64,000 nucleotides of DNA. It comes from Lachnospiraceae bacterium (GTDB lineage Bacteria; Bacillota; Clostridia; Lachnospirales; Lachnospiraceae). A program made the translations under genes and the position numbers. The DNA is taken from contig JAGANL010000047.1 in assembly GCA_017624235.1 (NCBI GenBank), positions 1 through 64,000 of the forward strand. The letters run 5' to 3'. The notes beneath the pieces were generated by a model, which saw nothing but the letters and a program-made list of their open reading frames with translations, searched no databases and was not told the origin of the DNA. Of the stretch, positions 8,170 through 17,768 are shown one piece after another (position 1 is the first letter of the stretch; the number at the start of each line of letters is the position of its first letter).

Positions 8170-8224
8170 ATTGTATAGAATTGAATAAGAACTATGCTAT
8201 AAAGCGAAAATGGAGGGTATACGA

Positions 8225-10168
8225 ATGAGCACAGTTTGGGTGGATAGCAGCAAATGCGTGGGATGTAATTCCTGCGTCAGGGTTTGCCCGGTCAGTGATG
8301 CGAACTGCGCCAAAAAGGATGAAAACGGAAATATTATCATTGAGATTGATGAGACGAAGTGTATCAAGTGCGGTGCCTGTATTAAGGCTTGCAGTCATGG
8401 AGCCAGAGGGTTTGAGGATGATACGGAACAGTTTTTGGCAGATTTGAAAAGAGGCGAAAAAATTGCGGTCATAGCAGCTCCGGCCATTAAGATTGCTTTT
8501 GACGGCAACTGGAGGCACGCGCTTCAGTGGCTGCGCAATGAAGGTGTGGATGGAGTTTATGATGTGTCTCTGGGAGCGGATATCTGTACATGGGCGCATC
8601 TGCGTTATCTGGAGAGGCATCCGGATGCCAAAATCCTGAGCCAGCCCTGTGCTGTCATTGTCAATTATATTGTGAAACACAGACAAAAGCTGTTAAAGAA
8701 CCTTTCTCCGGTTCAGAGTCCGATGCTTTGTCTGGCAGTCTATATGCGTAAGTATTTGAATTATAAGGGAAAGATTGCTGCCATTTCACCGTGTATCGGA
8801 AAAAGGGATGAGTTTCGGATGACGGGACTGATTCAGTACAATGTAACGATGGAGCATTTGAAGCAGTATTTTGAGGAGCATCATATTGAACTGCCTAAGG
8901 TTAAGCTGTATTCTGAGTTTGAATTTGATGTGGAACAGGGCATGGAAGGTGCAATCTATCCGAAGCCGGGCGGACTGATGAAGAATCTGCTGTATCATAA
9001 ACCAGATCTGGATATTATGAATCTGGAGGGTACGGAGCATGTTTATAAGGAACTTGTCAAATATATGGATGAGGATGAACGGTATAAACCGCAGGTACTG
9101 GATGTACTGAATTGTGAATTTGGCTGCAACGGTGGGCCGGCTGTCGGTCAGGATTATAATTTTATGCGGATGAATGCCATTATGCACGACGTAGAGACGT
9201 ATGCGCATGAGAAGAGACAGAAGAATACCAAACGCGGAAAGGATCTGCAGTATGACCGGTTCGATAAAGAATTGAGACTGGAGGATTTCTTACGGGAATA
9301 CCAGCCGGAAAATGTAGCTAAAGTGTCCGTCAGCCAGGCTGATTTAGAGCGGGGCTATACGGCACTCGGGAAAAGGACAGAGACGGAGAAGCATTTTGAC
9401 TGTCACGCATGCGGTTTCCGTTCCTGTGCGGATATGGCCAAGGCGATTGTCAGAGGGCTCAATTTGCCCGAGAACTGTCATCAGTATATGATGCAGCAGA
9501 TTCGTGAGGAAAGGGAACGGATTACCGGAGTCAATAGTCAGGTCAGTGAGCTGACGCATAAGCTGCAGGATGTGACGGAAGAAATCAATGCGCGTATGGC
9601 TGAGGTCAGGGAGGCAGCAGCCCATATTGGAGAAATCGGCCGCAGCAACAGCACTGAGATGGGAAATGTCATTACCTATATGGACGGGCTGAAGGAATTG
9701 AACGGTACGATTCTGAACGGAATGCAGGATATCAATGTGAATATTGCAAAGTACCGTGAGATGTCCCAGAGCGTGGAGCGGATTGCCAGAAATATCAATC
9801 TGTTATCCTTAAATGCAAGTATTGAAGCTGCCAGAGCAGGAGAGGCAGGACGTGGTTTTGCCGTGGTAGCAGATAATATCCGGAAGCTTTCGGATGAGTC
9901 CAAGCAGTCAGTAGCCGAAGCGCAGGACAATGATGATAAGATTGCAGGTGTGATTTCCACGGTTAATACGACTGTGGATGGCTTTACAGACAATATTGCA
10001 AAGCTGACGGAGGTCGTGCAGACGGCCATTGAGGGTGTGAACCAAAGTTCCGTACGGAGTGAAAATATACAGGATGTTATGCAGCAGATGAGTGGTATTT
10101 TGGATACGATGACGGACATGGTGGAACAAACAAACAGAATTCTTTTAGCAAACGAGGAGGAAAGATGA
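8225..10168 (+). CDS. Sensory [FeFe]-hydrogenase-like protein fused to a methyl-accepting chemotaxis signalling domain
   Basis: The 647-residue protein has four modules. Residues about 8-62 form a 2[4Fe-4S] ferredoxin domain ([23 protein letters not shown]). Residues about 75-335 form an [FeFe]-hydrogenase large-subunit core whose H-cluster loops are reduced: QPC (C142), SPCIGK (C190) and CEFGCNGG (C297, C301), so all four cluster cysteines are kept but the catalytic TSCCPxW loop is not. Residues about 390-425 form a CHACGFRSC...C iron-sulphur domain. The C-terminus (about 440-647) holds a chemoreceptor hairpin tip ([26 protein letters not shown]). No transmembrane helix exists, so it is a cytoplasmic receptor. 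Known sensory hydrogenases (groups C/D) carry kinase, cyclase or phosphatase outputs; here the output should be CheA/CheW. The ATG at 8225 follows GGAGGG (8212-8217). Its stop overlaps the next start (ATGA). Confidence 0.88.
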
Positions 10169-13502: not shown

Positions 13503-16500
13503 TCAGGCAGAATGCTCTGAAGCGTCCGTCTGCGTATTCCTGTTCAGGTTTTTCTGTGCGGTAGAGAGCATCAGTTTGATGCGGTTTAACTGGTTTACCT
13601 CACTGGCACCCGGATCGTAGTCGATGGCTACAATATTGGCCTGCGGATACTCCTTGCGGATCGCCTTGATGACACCCTTTCCGACTACGTGATTCGGCAG
13701 GCAGCCAAACGGCTGTGTGCAGACGATATTCGGAGCATCGCTGTGAATCAGTTCAATCATTTCACCGGTTAGGAACCAGCCTTCACCGGTCTGATTACCG
13801 ATAGAAACGATAGGCTCTGCATAATGCACCAGATCCTCAATATGAGCCGGTGGTGTGAAATGCCTGCTTTTGGCAAATTCATCGGCAGCAGCGGAGCGGG
13901 CAAATTCCAATGCCTTGATACCGAGCCTGCAGAGCCTTGCAGCCTTTTTGCTCGTTCCCAGATGTTCTGCTTTGTAAATCTGGTTCTGGAAACAGTAAAG
14001 CATAAAGTCTAACAGATCCGGTACAACGGCTTCTGCACCTTCCGATTCCAGTAATTCTACCAGATAGTTGTTAGCGGCCGGAAGGAATTTTACTAAAATT
14101 TCACCCACGATACCTACGCGTGGCTTTTTCACATCCGTAATGGGGATGGCATCAAAATCCCGGATGATCTGTCGGCACATTTTCCGGAAGGTAAAGAAGT
14201 TCAGATGTCTGCCGGAGACAAAATCCTGACATTTCGATACCCATTGGCGATGCAGGGCATTGACATTGCCTTCTTCCTGTTCATAAGGTCTCATGCGGTA
14301 GGTGCAGCGCATGAAGATATCGCCAAAGATAGCTCCACAGGCAGCACGCAGCAGAAGGTTTGCATCCAGCTTAAATCCGGGATTCGTTTCGATTCCTGCC
14401 ATGTTCAGGGAAATGACCGGAATCTGCGACATGCCGGCCTTTTCCAGTGCACGGCGGATAAAGCCGATGTAATTGGTTGCCCGACAGCCCCCTCCCGTCT
14501 GGGACATAATGATGGCTATGCGATTTAGGTCATATTTCCCGGAAAGCAGCGCTTCCATTATCTGCCCTACGACGAACAGGGAAGGATAGCAGGCATCATT
14601 ATTGACATATTTCAAGCCCACATCCACGGAGTGCTTATTGTCATTGGAAAGTACTTCAAAACGATAACCACAGGCCCGGAAGGCGGGCTCGATAAGCTCA
14701 AAGTGAATTGGTGACATCTGTGGACATAAAATGGTATAGTCCTTGCGCATTTCTTCTGTAAACGGCACCTTGGTAATCGCAGAGGAGTGGATTTCACGCT
14801 GCTGGTGCTTCTGCTCTCTGACACGGATAGCGGATAACAGGGAGCGGATGCGGATACGTGCAGCCCCCAGATTGTTCACCTCGTCTATCTTTAAGCAGGT
14901 ATAAATCTTACCTGAACCGGACAGGATATCATTGACCTGATCGGTCGTGACCGCATCCAGTCCGCAGCCAAAGGAATTCAACTGGATCAGATCCAGATTA
15001 TCCACCGTCTTTACATAGCTTGCGGCAGCGTACAGTCTGGAATGGTACATCCACTGGTCGGATACGATCAGCGGTCTTTCTGGTGCAGTAAGGTGGGAGA
15101 TGGAATCCTCCGTCAGTACGGCAATATCATAGGAGGTGATCAGCTCCGGGATGCCGTGGTTGATTTCCGGATCGATATGGTAGGGGCGTCCGGCCAGTAC
15201 GATACCGCGTTTCCCGGTTTCCTTCAGATAGTCCAATACTTCTTCGCCCTTATGCCTCATATCGGTACGTGCCAGTGCAAGCTCCTGCCATGCTTCTTTG
15301 GCGGCAGCTGCTACCTCGCCCCTGTCCAGTTCCAGAAATTCCTGAGTCAGTGCTTCGGTAACGGTTTCCAGTGAGGTAAAGGACATGAAAGGGTTGCGGA
15401 AGGTGACCTGTCCGCTTGAAATCTCGTCCACATTGTTTTTAATATTTTCCGAGTAAGAGGTAACAATCGGGCAATTGTAATGATTGTTTGCCTCGCTGAA
15501 TTCATTTCGTTCGTAAAATAGAGCCGGATAAAAAATAAAATCCACGTTCTGTTTGATCAGCCAGGAAACATGTCCATGCGCGAGCTTGGCCGGATAGCAT
15601 TCGGACTCGCTCGGAATGGATTCAATGCCAAGCTCGTAAATCTTACGGTTCGACACCGGAGAGAGTATGACACGGTAGCCGAGTCTGGTAAAGAAGGTGA
15701 ACCAGAACGGATAATTCTCATACATGTTCAGAACACGAGGGATTCCGACCGTGCCCCTGGGTGCCGCATCCGCAGGAAGAGGCTCGTAGGAGAAGTAGCG
15801 GTTCAGCTTATATTCAAATAAGTTCGGAACATGATTGGCGTTTTTTTCCTTGCCCAGTCCGCGTTCACAGCGGTTGCCTGAAATATACTGACGTCCGCCG
15901 GAGAATTTATTGATGGTCAGACGGCAGTTGTTGGTACAGCCCTTACATTTTGCCATGGTAGTGGTAAATTCCAGAGCGTTGATCTTATCAATCGATAACA
16001 TGGTGGTCTGGTAATGCTCTGTCTCATGAAAACGTTCCCTTGCAATGAGAGCAGCACCGAAGGCACCCATAATGCCGGCAATATCCGGACGGATTGCCTG
16101 ACAGTTCGCAATTTTTTCAAAGCTGCGCAAAACAGCATCGTTATAGAAGGTTCCACCCTGTACTACAATCTGCTTTCCAAGCTCGGAAGCATCGGATACC
16201 TTGATGACCTTAAACAGGGCATTCTTGATGACCGAATAAGCCAGTCCGGCCGAAATGTCTGCTACAGATGCGCCTTCCTTCTGTGCCTGCTTTACTTTGG
16301 AATTCATAAATACGGTACAGCGGGTTCCAAGATCAATCGGATGCTCGGCAAACAGGGCAGCCTTTGCAAAGTCCTCTACGCTGTAGTTTAAGGATTTGGC
16401 AAAGGTCTCTATAAAGGAGCCGCAGCCGGAAGAACAGGCCTCATTTAACTGGACAGAGTCTACCGTCTGATTTTTGATCTTAATACATTTCATATCCTGA

Positions 16501-17768
16501 CCGCCGATGTCCAGAATGCAATCCACCTGAGGATCAAAGAAGGCGGCGGCATAGTAGTGCGCTACGGTCTCTACCTCTCCGTCATCCAGTAAAAAGGCGG
16601 CCTTCATCAGAGCTTCTCCATAGCCGGTGGAGCAGGAACGGACAATTTTCACATCATCCGGCAACTGCCCGTAGATTTCCTGAATGGAACGGATTGCGGT
16701 CTTTAAGGGGCTGCCGTTGTTGTTGGAGTAAAAGGAATAGAGCAGGGAGCCGTCCTCACCGACCAAAGCGACTTTGGTAGTGGTAGAACCGGCATCGATG
16801 CCCAGATAACAGTTCCCATGATATGTACTTAAATTTCCGGTCACAACATGATGTCTGCTGTGACGGTCTTTAAATTCCTGATAGTCTGCTTCCGAAGCGA
16901 AAAGAGGATCCATACGCTCTACTTCAAAATCCATTTTGATGCCTTGAGAGAGCTTTTCTGCCATTTCCTCGATGGTGACAGAAACCTCCTTTTTAGCATT
17001 TAAAGCAGAACCGATTGCCGCAAAGAGGTGAGAGTTATCCGTATCGATGATATGCTCCTCATCCAGCTTTAAGGTACGAATGAAGGCTGTCTTCAGTTCC
17101 GATAAAAAGTGAAGAGGGCCGCCCAAAAATGCCACATGTCCGCGAATCGGCTTTCCACAGGCAAGTCCGCTGATGGTCTGGTTGACCACTGCCTGAAAAA
17201 TGGAAGCGGAAAGATCCTCCTTGGTAGCTCCTTCGTTAATCAGCGGCTGGATATCCGTTTTGGCAAAAACGCCGCAGCGCGCTGCAATCGTATAAAGAGA
17301 CTGATAGCCTTTGGCATATTCGTTTAAGCCGGAGGCATCAGTCTGTAAAAGGGATGCCATCTGATCGATAAAGGAGCCGGTTCCGCCGGCGCAGATACCG
17401 TTCATACGCTGTTCGACGTTGCCTCCTTCAAAATAGATGATCTTGGCATCCTCACCGCCCAATTCGATAGCTACATCGGTTTTGGGAGCAAGCTCCTGTA
17501 AGGCAGTGGATACGGCGATTACCTCCTGGTTGAAGGGAACGCCCAGGTGATTGGCCAGAGTCAGTCCGCCGGAGCCGGTAATCATCGGATGCAGCGTAAT
17601 GTTGCCAAGGGAGGCCTTTGCTTCGTCTAACAGAGAAGCCAGAGTTCCCTGGATGTTGGCAAAATGCCTTTTGTAATCAGAAAATAATATTTGATGCACA
17701 TCGTTTAAGATGGCTATTTTTACAGTAGTGGAACCGATATCGATTCCGAGAGTATATTCCTTTTGCAT
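13503..17768 (-). CDS. Giant 2-hydroxyacyl-CoA dehydratase activase-related protein (two BadF/BcrA-type ATPase domains)
   Basis: The 1421-residue cytoplasmic protein has two ASKHA ATPase domains in tandem, opening with [13 protein letters not shown] (about 7) and [14 protein letters not shown] (about 325). Each carries a cluster-ligand region, ICAGGTGSF in the first and [10 protein letters not shown] in the second, as in HgdC-type activases. A cysteine motif CKGCTNNC follows near 610, then a DUF2229-like region and a long C-terminal part with further conserved cysteines ([27 protein letters not shown]). Classical activases are about 260 residues and inject electrons into 2-hydroxyacyl-CoA dehydratases; for this long form the substrate is unknown and no dehydratase genes are adjacent. 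It is transcribed alone from a promoter at 17816. Confidence 0.85.

Follow-up and report, generated by a model that had tools for sequence, protein, structure and literature searches.

A soluble [FeFe]-hydrogenase-type chemoreceptor of the putative HydDB C2 kind in a Lachnospiraceae bacterium

The stretch of DNA analysed here (the window) covers 64,000 nt of one contig from a Lachnospiraceae bacterium whose genome assembly amounts to 2.33 Mb in 51 contigs and is 80% complete. On the forward strand, positions 8225..10168 (stop codon included) hold a gene for a 647-aa hydrogenase-type chemoreceptor, as defined by its open reading frame and Pfam matches. The sequence GGAGGG at 8212..8217 (+), 7 nt upstream of the ATG at 8225, probably serves as its ribosome-binding site; a longer alternative frame from the ATG at 8210 would overlap this site. 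Upstream of the receptor gene lie ribD, ribE, ribBA, and ribH, and downstream is a gene for a DUF5722 protein whose start overlaps the receptor stop codon. Further along, positions 13503-17768 (-) encode a 1421-aa protein with matches to acyl-CoA dehydratase activases.

From its N terminus, the receptor carries a 2[4Fe-4S] ferredoxin domain (aa 4-60, 8234..8404, +; cysteines C11, C14, C17, C21 and C46, C49, C52, C56; Pfam Fer4 types), an [FeFe]-hydrogenase H-domain (aa 79-305, 8459..9139, +; Fe_hyd_lg_C, PF02906, E 4.7e-25, with solved hydrogenases also matched), a C-terminal Fe-S domain of the form Cx2Cx4Cx16C (C393, C396, C401, C418; 9395..9478, +; FeS, PF04060, E 5.5e-6, aa 391-418), and a chemoreceptor coiled-coil hairpin (aa 424-640, 9494..10144, +; MCPsignal, PF00015, E 5.1e-21, aa 496-638). 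PF02906, PF04060, and PF00015 each score over their curated cut-offs in this protein, the last at 75.7 bits vs. a cut-off of 34.6. This domain order bears out the original prediction, made from the sequence alone, that ferredoxin, H-domain, Fe-S domain, and methyl-accepting chemotaxis protein (MCP) hairpin are joined in a single protein. No PAS domain was matched in the 647 residues by Pfam up to E 0.01, and a simple scan saw no transmembrane-like stretch along them; the product is a soluble protein.

Within the H-domain, the H-cluster cysteines C142, C190, C297, and C301 were found exactly where they had been predicted, and the alteration of the catalytic loops proved real. In alignments, loop L1 (aa 139-143, 8639..8653, +) reads S-Q-P-C142-A, with P141 at the position of CpI C299. 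Loop L2 (aa 188-196, 8786..8812, +) contains S-P-C-I-G-K, where S188 stands at CpI M353 and is followed by C190, K193, which we take to correspond to CpI K358, and E196. Loop L3 (aa 293-305, 9101..9139, +) is also changed and holds L295 at CpI M497 together with C297 and C301. Alignment columns also mark the motif GADICTWAH (aa 117-125, 8573..8599, +); H125 and Y128 occupy the sites of glutamates in 17 aligned group A proteins. Judged by sequence, the proline in place of the proton-relay cysteine suggests that the protein acts as a slow sensor and not as an enzyme. The protein falls outside group A, with SQPCA in place of the TSCCP loop and its relay cysteine and a TIGR02512 (group A) score of 87.6 bits vs. 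a cut-off of 405.95. Serine replaces the C300 ligand in 11 of the 17 aligned group A proteins. Loci L125-L129, L132, L135, L136, L138, L140, and L141 encode group A-type proteins with the loop TSCSPGW, in which serine stands at the cubane ligand site C300.

The conservation of these residues was followed in three alignments. For clade A, to which the window protein belongs, the best 80 of 580 loci found were fetched; 76 of them and the window protein were aligned (n=77), four having been excluded because a stop interrupts the region that matched. Some of these contigs are shared with the family-genome set, so the sets overlap. All 16 cluster cysteines, together with C121 and C169, are invariant in the 77 proteins; this invariance, and the recurrence of the architecture in relatives, indicate that the domain arrangement is more than a chance fusion. 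P86 is serine in one of the 77, and the CpI M353 site is serine in 76 and threonine in one. A second set, also of 77 proteins, combined 13 from clade A, 48 from clade B (47 genomes), and 16 from elsewhere. Here the four H-cluster cysteines, A85, P86, K193, and E196 are kept in each row with a letter at the site (73-77 of 77), and C121 is threonine in most proteins beyond clade A. Finally, in an alignment of 115 proteins, all 76 sensor proteins keep the same four cysteines, A85, P86, K193, and E196, and 75 have proline at the C299 site. A domain scan assigned these 76 sensors 58 MCP, 11 kinase, five PAS-sigma-54 activator, and one GGDEF output, with no output found for one. A85 and K193 have been lost from four GGDEF-EAL-linked relatives, which shows that their retention elsewhere is not automatic.

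MCP-fused members were present in 57 of 299 sampled genomes of the family (13 with clade A, 47 with clade B, three with both); these counts leave out G029, which has a kinase output, and G285, which is cut by a contig end. In the members from G122, G200, and G101 an in-frame stop interrupts the H-domain; the stops were left in place, and only the sequence 3' of each was used. For L242, translation began at the first ATG, which leaves out the N-terminal part. The best 80 of the 580 clade A loci come mostly from metagenome-assembled genomes of Lachnospiraceae type, with a few isolates, and several are titled as samples from deer or rabbit gut. A sample of 299 genomes across the phylum supplied 12 carriers of an MCP-fused protein outside the family for follow-up; G327, whose protein (L257) has a GGDEF output, was not counted among them. 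In the tree, which omits fragments and repeats (L034, L036, the second L024 frame, the short L084 frame, L258, L260, L270, L271, and L273), the MCP-, kinase-, sigma-54-, and GGDEF-EAL-linked proteins form one clade of 81 tips (FastTree support 1.00) that stands apart from the HydS-type, group B, and group A proteins. MCP, histidine kinase, GGDEF or GGDEF-EAL, and PAS-sigma-54 activator domains all occur as outputs of the sensor module, which in being coupled to such varied partners behaves as a signal input would. Loci L266, L267, L268, L274, and L275 combine the sensor with PAS, sigma-54 activator, and Fis-type DNA-binding domains, which amounts to a direct transcription-factor output. A homologue with 36% identity and the same domains is encoded on a replicon of Acetoanaerobium noterae. 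Mobile origin was considered and rejected: a search of plasmid proteins gave four records, one of them at 97% query cover, from the 2.6 Mb A. noterae replicon labelled as a plasmid.

Genomic context gave no further guide to function. Neither the rib genes nor the DUF5722 gene recurs beside relatives at the 80 clade A loci, and no neighbour is conserved among these loci, many of which are cut by contig ends, except a second sensor gene at about four; no other gene cluster occurs at more than 10 of the 80. A neighbour gene that would name the function was accordingly rejected as a source of evidence. The lack of a conserved neighbour also means that no operon links the receptor to hydrogenase or che genes, which counts against the interpretation we favour below.

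The protein can be placed among described systems. The 2016 HydDB paper (PMC5037454) lists an [FeFe] group C2, 'Chemotactic (putative)', in which a hydrogenase catalytic domain is tied to methyl-accepting chemotaxis proteins, and proposes H2 sensing. The window protein has the H-domain with its four cysteines and the MCP tie, and we assigned it on the strength of that description, from which it shows no difference. The wording of the description allows fused or neighbouring MCPs; here the MCP is fused. By its sequence features it is therefore a further member of a known, putative kind. No experiment on the C2 kind was found in the literature searched, the group C and D papers treat sensing as putative, and PMC9431212 discarded C2 candidates in Clostridium acetogens, using an H-domain motif as its [FeFe] check. 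The original prediction of a direct chemoreceptor output thus stands as far as the sensor-MCP fusion in a genome with flagellar and che genes is concerned, but not in its novelty, since HydDB has listed C2 since 2016 and relatives are frequent. The domain order, for which a family-database search had been proposed, likewise is not new, as MCP-fused relatives are frequent in the family and present elsewhere in the phylum.

Two putative sensory hydrogenases offer closer comparison. According to PMC8163306, the group D protein TamHydS (M2e) interconverts protons and H2 slowly; it shares with the window protein the Cx2Cx4Cx16C domain, serine at M353, leucine at M497, and the lack of both C299 and a PAS domain. 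Group D is marked by serine or threonine at M353, which agrees with S188 here. TamHydS has alanine at C299 and, in its proposed proton path, glutamate at 289, where the window protein has Pro141 and Asp293, and it has no output domain, unlike the window protein with its MCP hairpin. Asp293 stands two residues before L295, as TamHydS E289 stands before L291. The group C protein TmHydS (M2f) has in common with the window protein two N-terminal clusters, an H-domain, and a C-terminal Fe-S domain; group C HydS proteins, however, have glycine at M353 and a PAS domain according to the literature, in contrast to S188 and the absent PAS match here. Eight HydS-type proteins (seven from family genomes and one from R. 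albus) form a separate clade with glycine at M353 and, unlike TmHydS, cysteine at C299.

The hairpin aligns without gaps (profile positions 429-634) with the solved chemoreceptor hairpin of Thermotoga maritima, 2ch7; it is in the input domain that the window protein differs from such solved chemoreceptors. Its tip was located by alignment at aa 524-549 (9794..9871, +), and the tip residues N530, E534, and R537 are kept in 77 of 77 clade A proteins. By analogy with E. coli Tsr, we take these residues to contact CheA and CheW; loss of such contacts would have broken the predicted link from sensor to motor, and the residues are retained. PF00015 was matched in 75 of 77 proteins of the second set, the exceptions being L257 (GGDEF) and L276 (none found). 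The arm following the tip glutamate is 107 aa long in the window protein, 99-107 aa in clade A, and 89-98 aa in clade B where the tip pattern matched; that of L045 (83 aa) ends at a contig edge and lies outside the clade B range. Among the other MCP loci of the same genome, 14 of 18 with a readable tip have arms of 126-284 aa, possible extra C-terminal domains counted, which places the window protein in a shorter length class than the genome's other measured MCPs. Two variants were seen among relatives: L229 (G135:C16) is a 791-aa hydrogenase-type chemoreceptor to which a response-regulator receiver domain is added at the C terminus, and L052 (G108:C4) has clade A and clade B receptor genes side by side, possibly a mixed pair.

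The genome has the machinery that such a receptor would address. The predicted flagellar genes are present, with FliF inside the window and FliM, FlhB, FlhA, FlhF, and a FliA/WhiG-type sigma factor behind it, and a check for che genes found CheA, CheW, CheB, CheR, and CheC on the same contig (C4). CheB, CheA, CheW, and CheC lie at 75-79 kb, behind FliM, FlhB, FlhA, and FlhF and before the sigma factor. A second set (CheR, CheB, a receiver protein, CheA, and CheW) lies at 97.5-102.6 kb among response-regulator and large proteins. Across the family, CheA occurs in 56 of 57 carriers vs. 98 of 242 other genomes (p 1.1e-17), the sole carrier without it being G174 (76% complete), and in all 12 MCP-fused carriers outside the family. 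Any chemoreceptor would show such an association, which makes it uninformative on the ligand.

The explanation we favour, at slightly better than an even chance, is that this is a soluble receptor of the HydDB C2 kind that takes H2, or an H2-linked redox state, as its signal and acts via CheA on the flagella. H2 is the likeliest signal, and its main rival is Fe-S redox: the H-domain cysteines may hold only a [4Fe-4S] cluster, so that a chain of four [4Fe-4S] clusters would report ferredoxin redox or oxidants to CheA, a reading we consider possible but clearly less probable. Nar1/IOP1, a hydrogenase-like protein without a diiron site, is a precedent for it. HydE, HydG, and HydF adjoin one another on C40 of the receptor's own genome, each over its cut-off, but the presence of HydG does not predict carriage within the family (27 of 57 carriers vs. 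105 of 242 other genomes, p 0.66), a point that, like the aspartate at the TamHydS E289 site, weighs against the H2 reading. HydG over cut-off is absent from 30 of 57 carriers, and HydG and HydF are both absent from 25; a tblastn re-check in 25 chosen genomes confirmed the absence of HydG, returning only matches of 25-31% identity, in six of them. A group A protein (own E cut) is also absent in 14 of the 57. Yet family genomes that encode a group A protein lack HydG at a similar rate (96 of 193 by our own E cut; 191 genomes exceed the profile cut-off for group A), and these include G157, G022, and G135, whose loops are canonical. The gap therefore seems to belong to the genomes rather than to the receptor. 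Outside the family, 10 of the 12 MCP-fused carriers have HydG (G407 and G318 do not), as do, over cut-off, 44 of 53 selected genomes that contain a sensor-type match (12 MCP-fused, one GGDEF, and 40 typed by frame length only). The notion that missing HydG proves a receptor without an H-cluster was rejected on these grounds, although the group A proteins make a mixed control, given the serine at the C300 ligand in 11 of the 17 aligned. K193 and A85-P86, sites that presumably face the diiron part as in CpI, are kept in MCP- and kinase-linked members and lost in the four GGDEF-EAL-linked ones. Against an H-cluster, pocket residues are unchanged in members from genomes without HydG. We favour an H-cluster given the retention of these diiron-side residues and their loss in the GGDEF-EAL branch, the genome's own HydE, HydF, and HydG, the presence of HydG in most outside carriers, and the TamHydS precedent.

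A different output is also conceivable, in which the receptor feeds the second CheR-CheB-CheA-CheW set rather than the flagellar motor; we regard this as improbable. The existence of that set is in its favour, as is the excess of genomes with at least two CheA matches among CheA-bearing carriers (26 of 56 vs. 12 of 98 others, p 4.4e-6; seven of 13 for clade A), and the arm, shorter than in the genome's other MCPs, could segregate arrays. However, the two-CheA excess may simply reflect a larger stock of receptors and che genes in general, 30 of the 56 carriers have a single CheA match, and nothing links the receptor gene to the second set.

The hydrogenase and maturase surveys yielded further observations. 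The receptor's genome encodes two other hydrogenases, on C2 and C25; the former (L137, G000:C2) is a 696-aa group A type protein with small-subunit, rubrerythrin, and rubredoxin-like domains, and the latter is a 504-aa frame with the L1 sequence TSCCPSW. G157, G022, and G135 (99-100% complete) have a canonical group A hydrogenase and no HydE, HydF, or HydG over cut-off; in G157 and G022 HydG was also not found by tblastn. G191 and G232 (single-contig, 99-100% complete), G025, G071, and G134 have HydE and HydF over cut-off and no HydG, and the group A hydrogenases of G191 and G232 show canonical TSCCP, MPC, and MAC loops. By our own cut, HydF occurs without HydG in 32 of 299 family genomes; the HydF set is 161 genomes at E below 1e-60 and 160 over the profile cut-off. 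PMC9431212 discusses hydG genes that were missed in some acetogens of the genus Clostridium and refers to in vitro activation of about 1% when HydE and HydF were the only maturases.

For the favoured H2-sensing receptor, we infer a cluster content, a signal, a sign of response, and a conformational route as follows. Electrons and H2 would meet at the H-domain without a fast proton relay, giving slow turnover. The state of the H-cluster or of its linked [4Fe-4S] clusters would then change the conformation of the Cx2Cx4Cx16C domain, which runs straight into the MCP hairpin, and the hairpin tip, held with CheW, would set CheA kinase activity and thus flagellar switching. In a cell bearing HydE, HydG, and HydF, the primary signal would most likely be intracellular H2 or an H2-linked redox state, and the response may steer the cell toward or away from fermentation zones. 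It is a more doubtful proposition that the widespread Lachnospiraceae-type receptors steer swimming even where HydE, HydF, and HydG are missing, either as redox-taxis with an empty diiron pocket or with a diiron site made by an unknown route.

Since 2016 C2 has existed as a label in a database, and no test of it was found in the literature searched. In the family described here, a single soluble protein provides the link between a hydrogenase-type site and CheA. Several sequenced relatives of these bacteria come from animal guts, where H2 is a main currency. Whether such bacteria swim by H2 can thereby be tested directly, as can the diiron question in those carriers that lack maturase genes.
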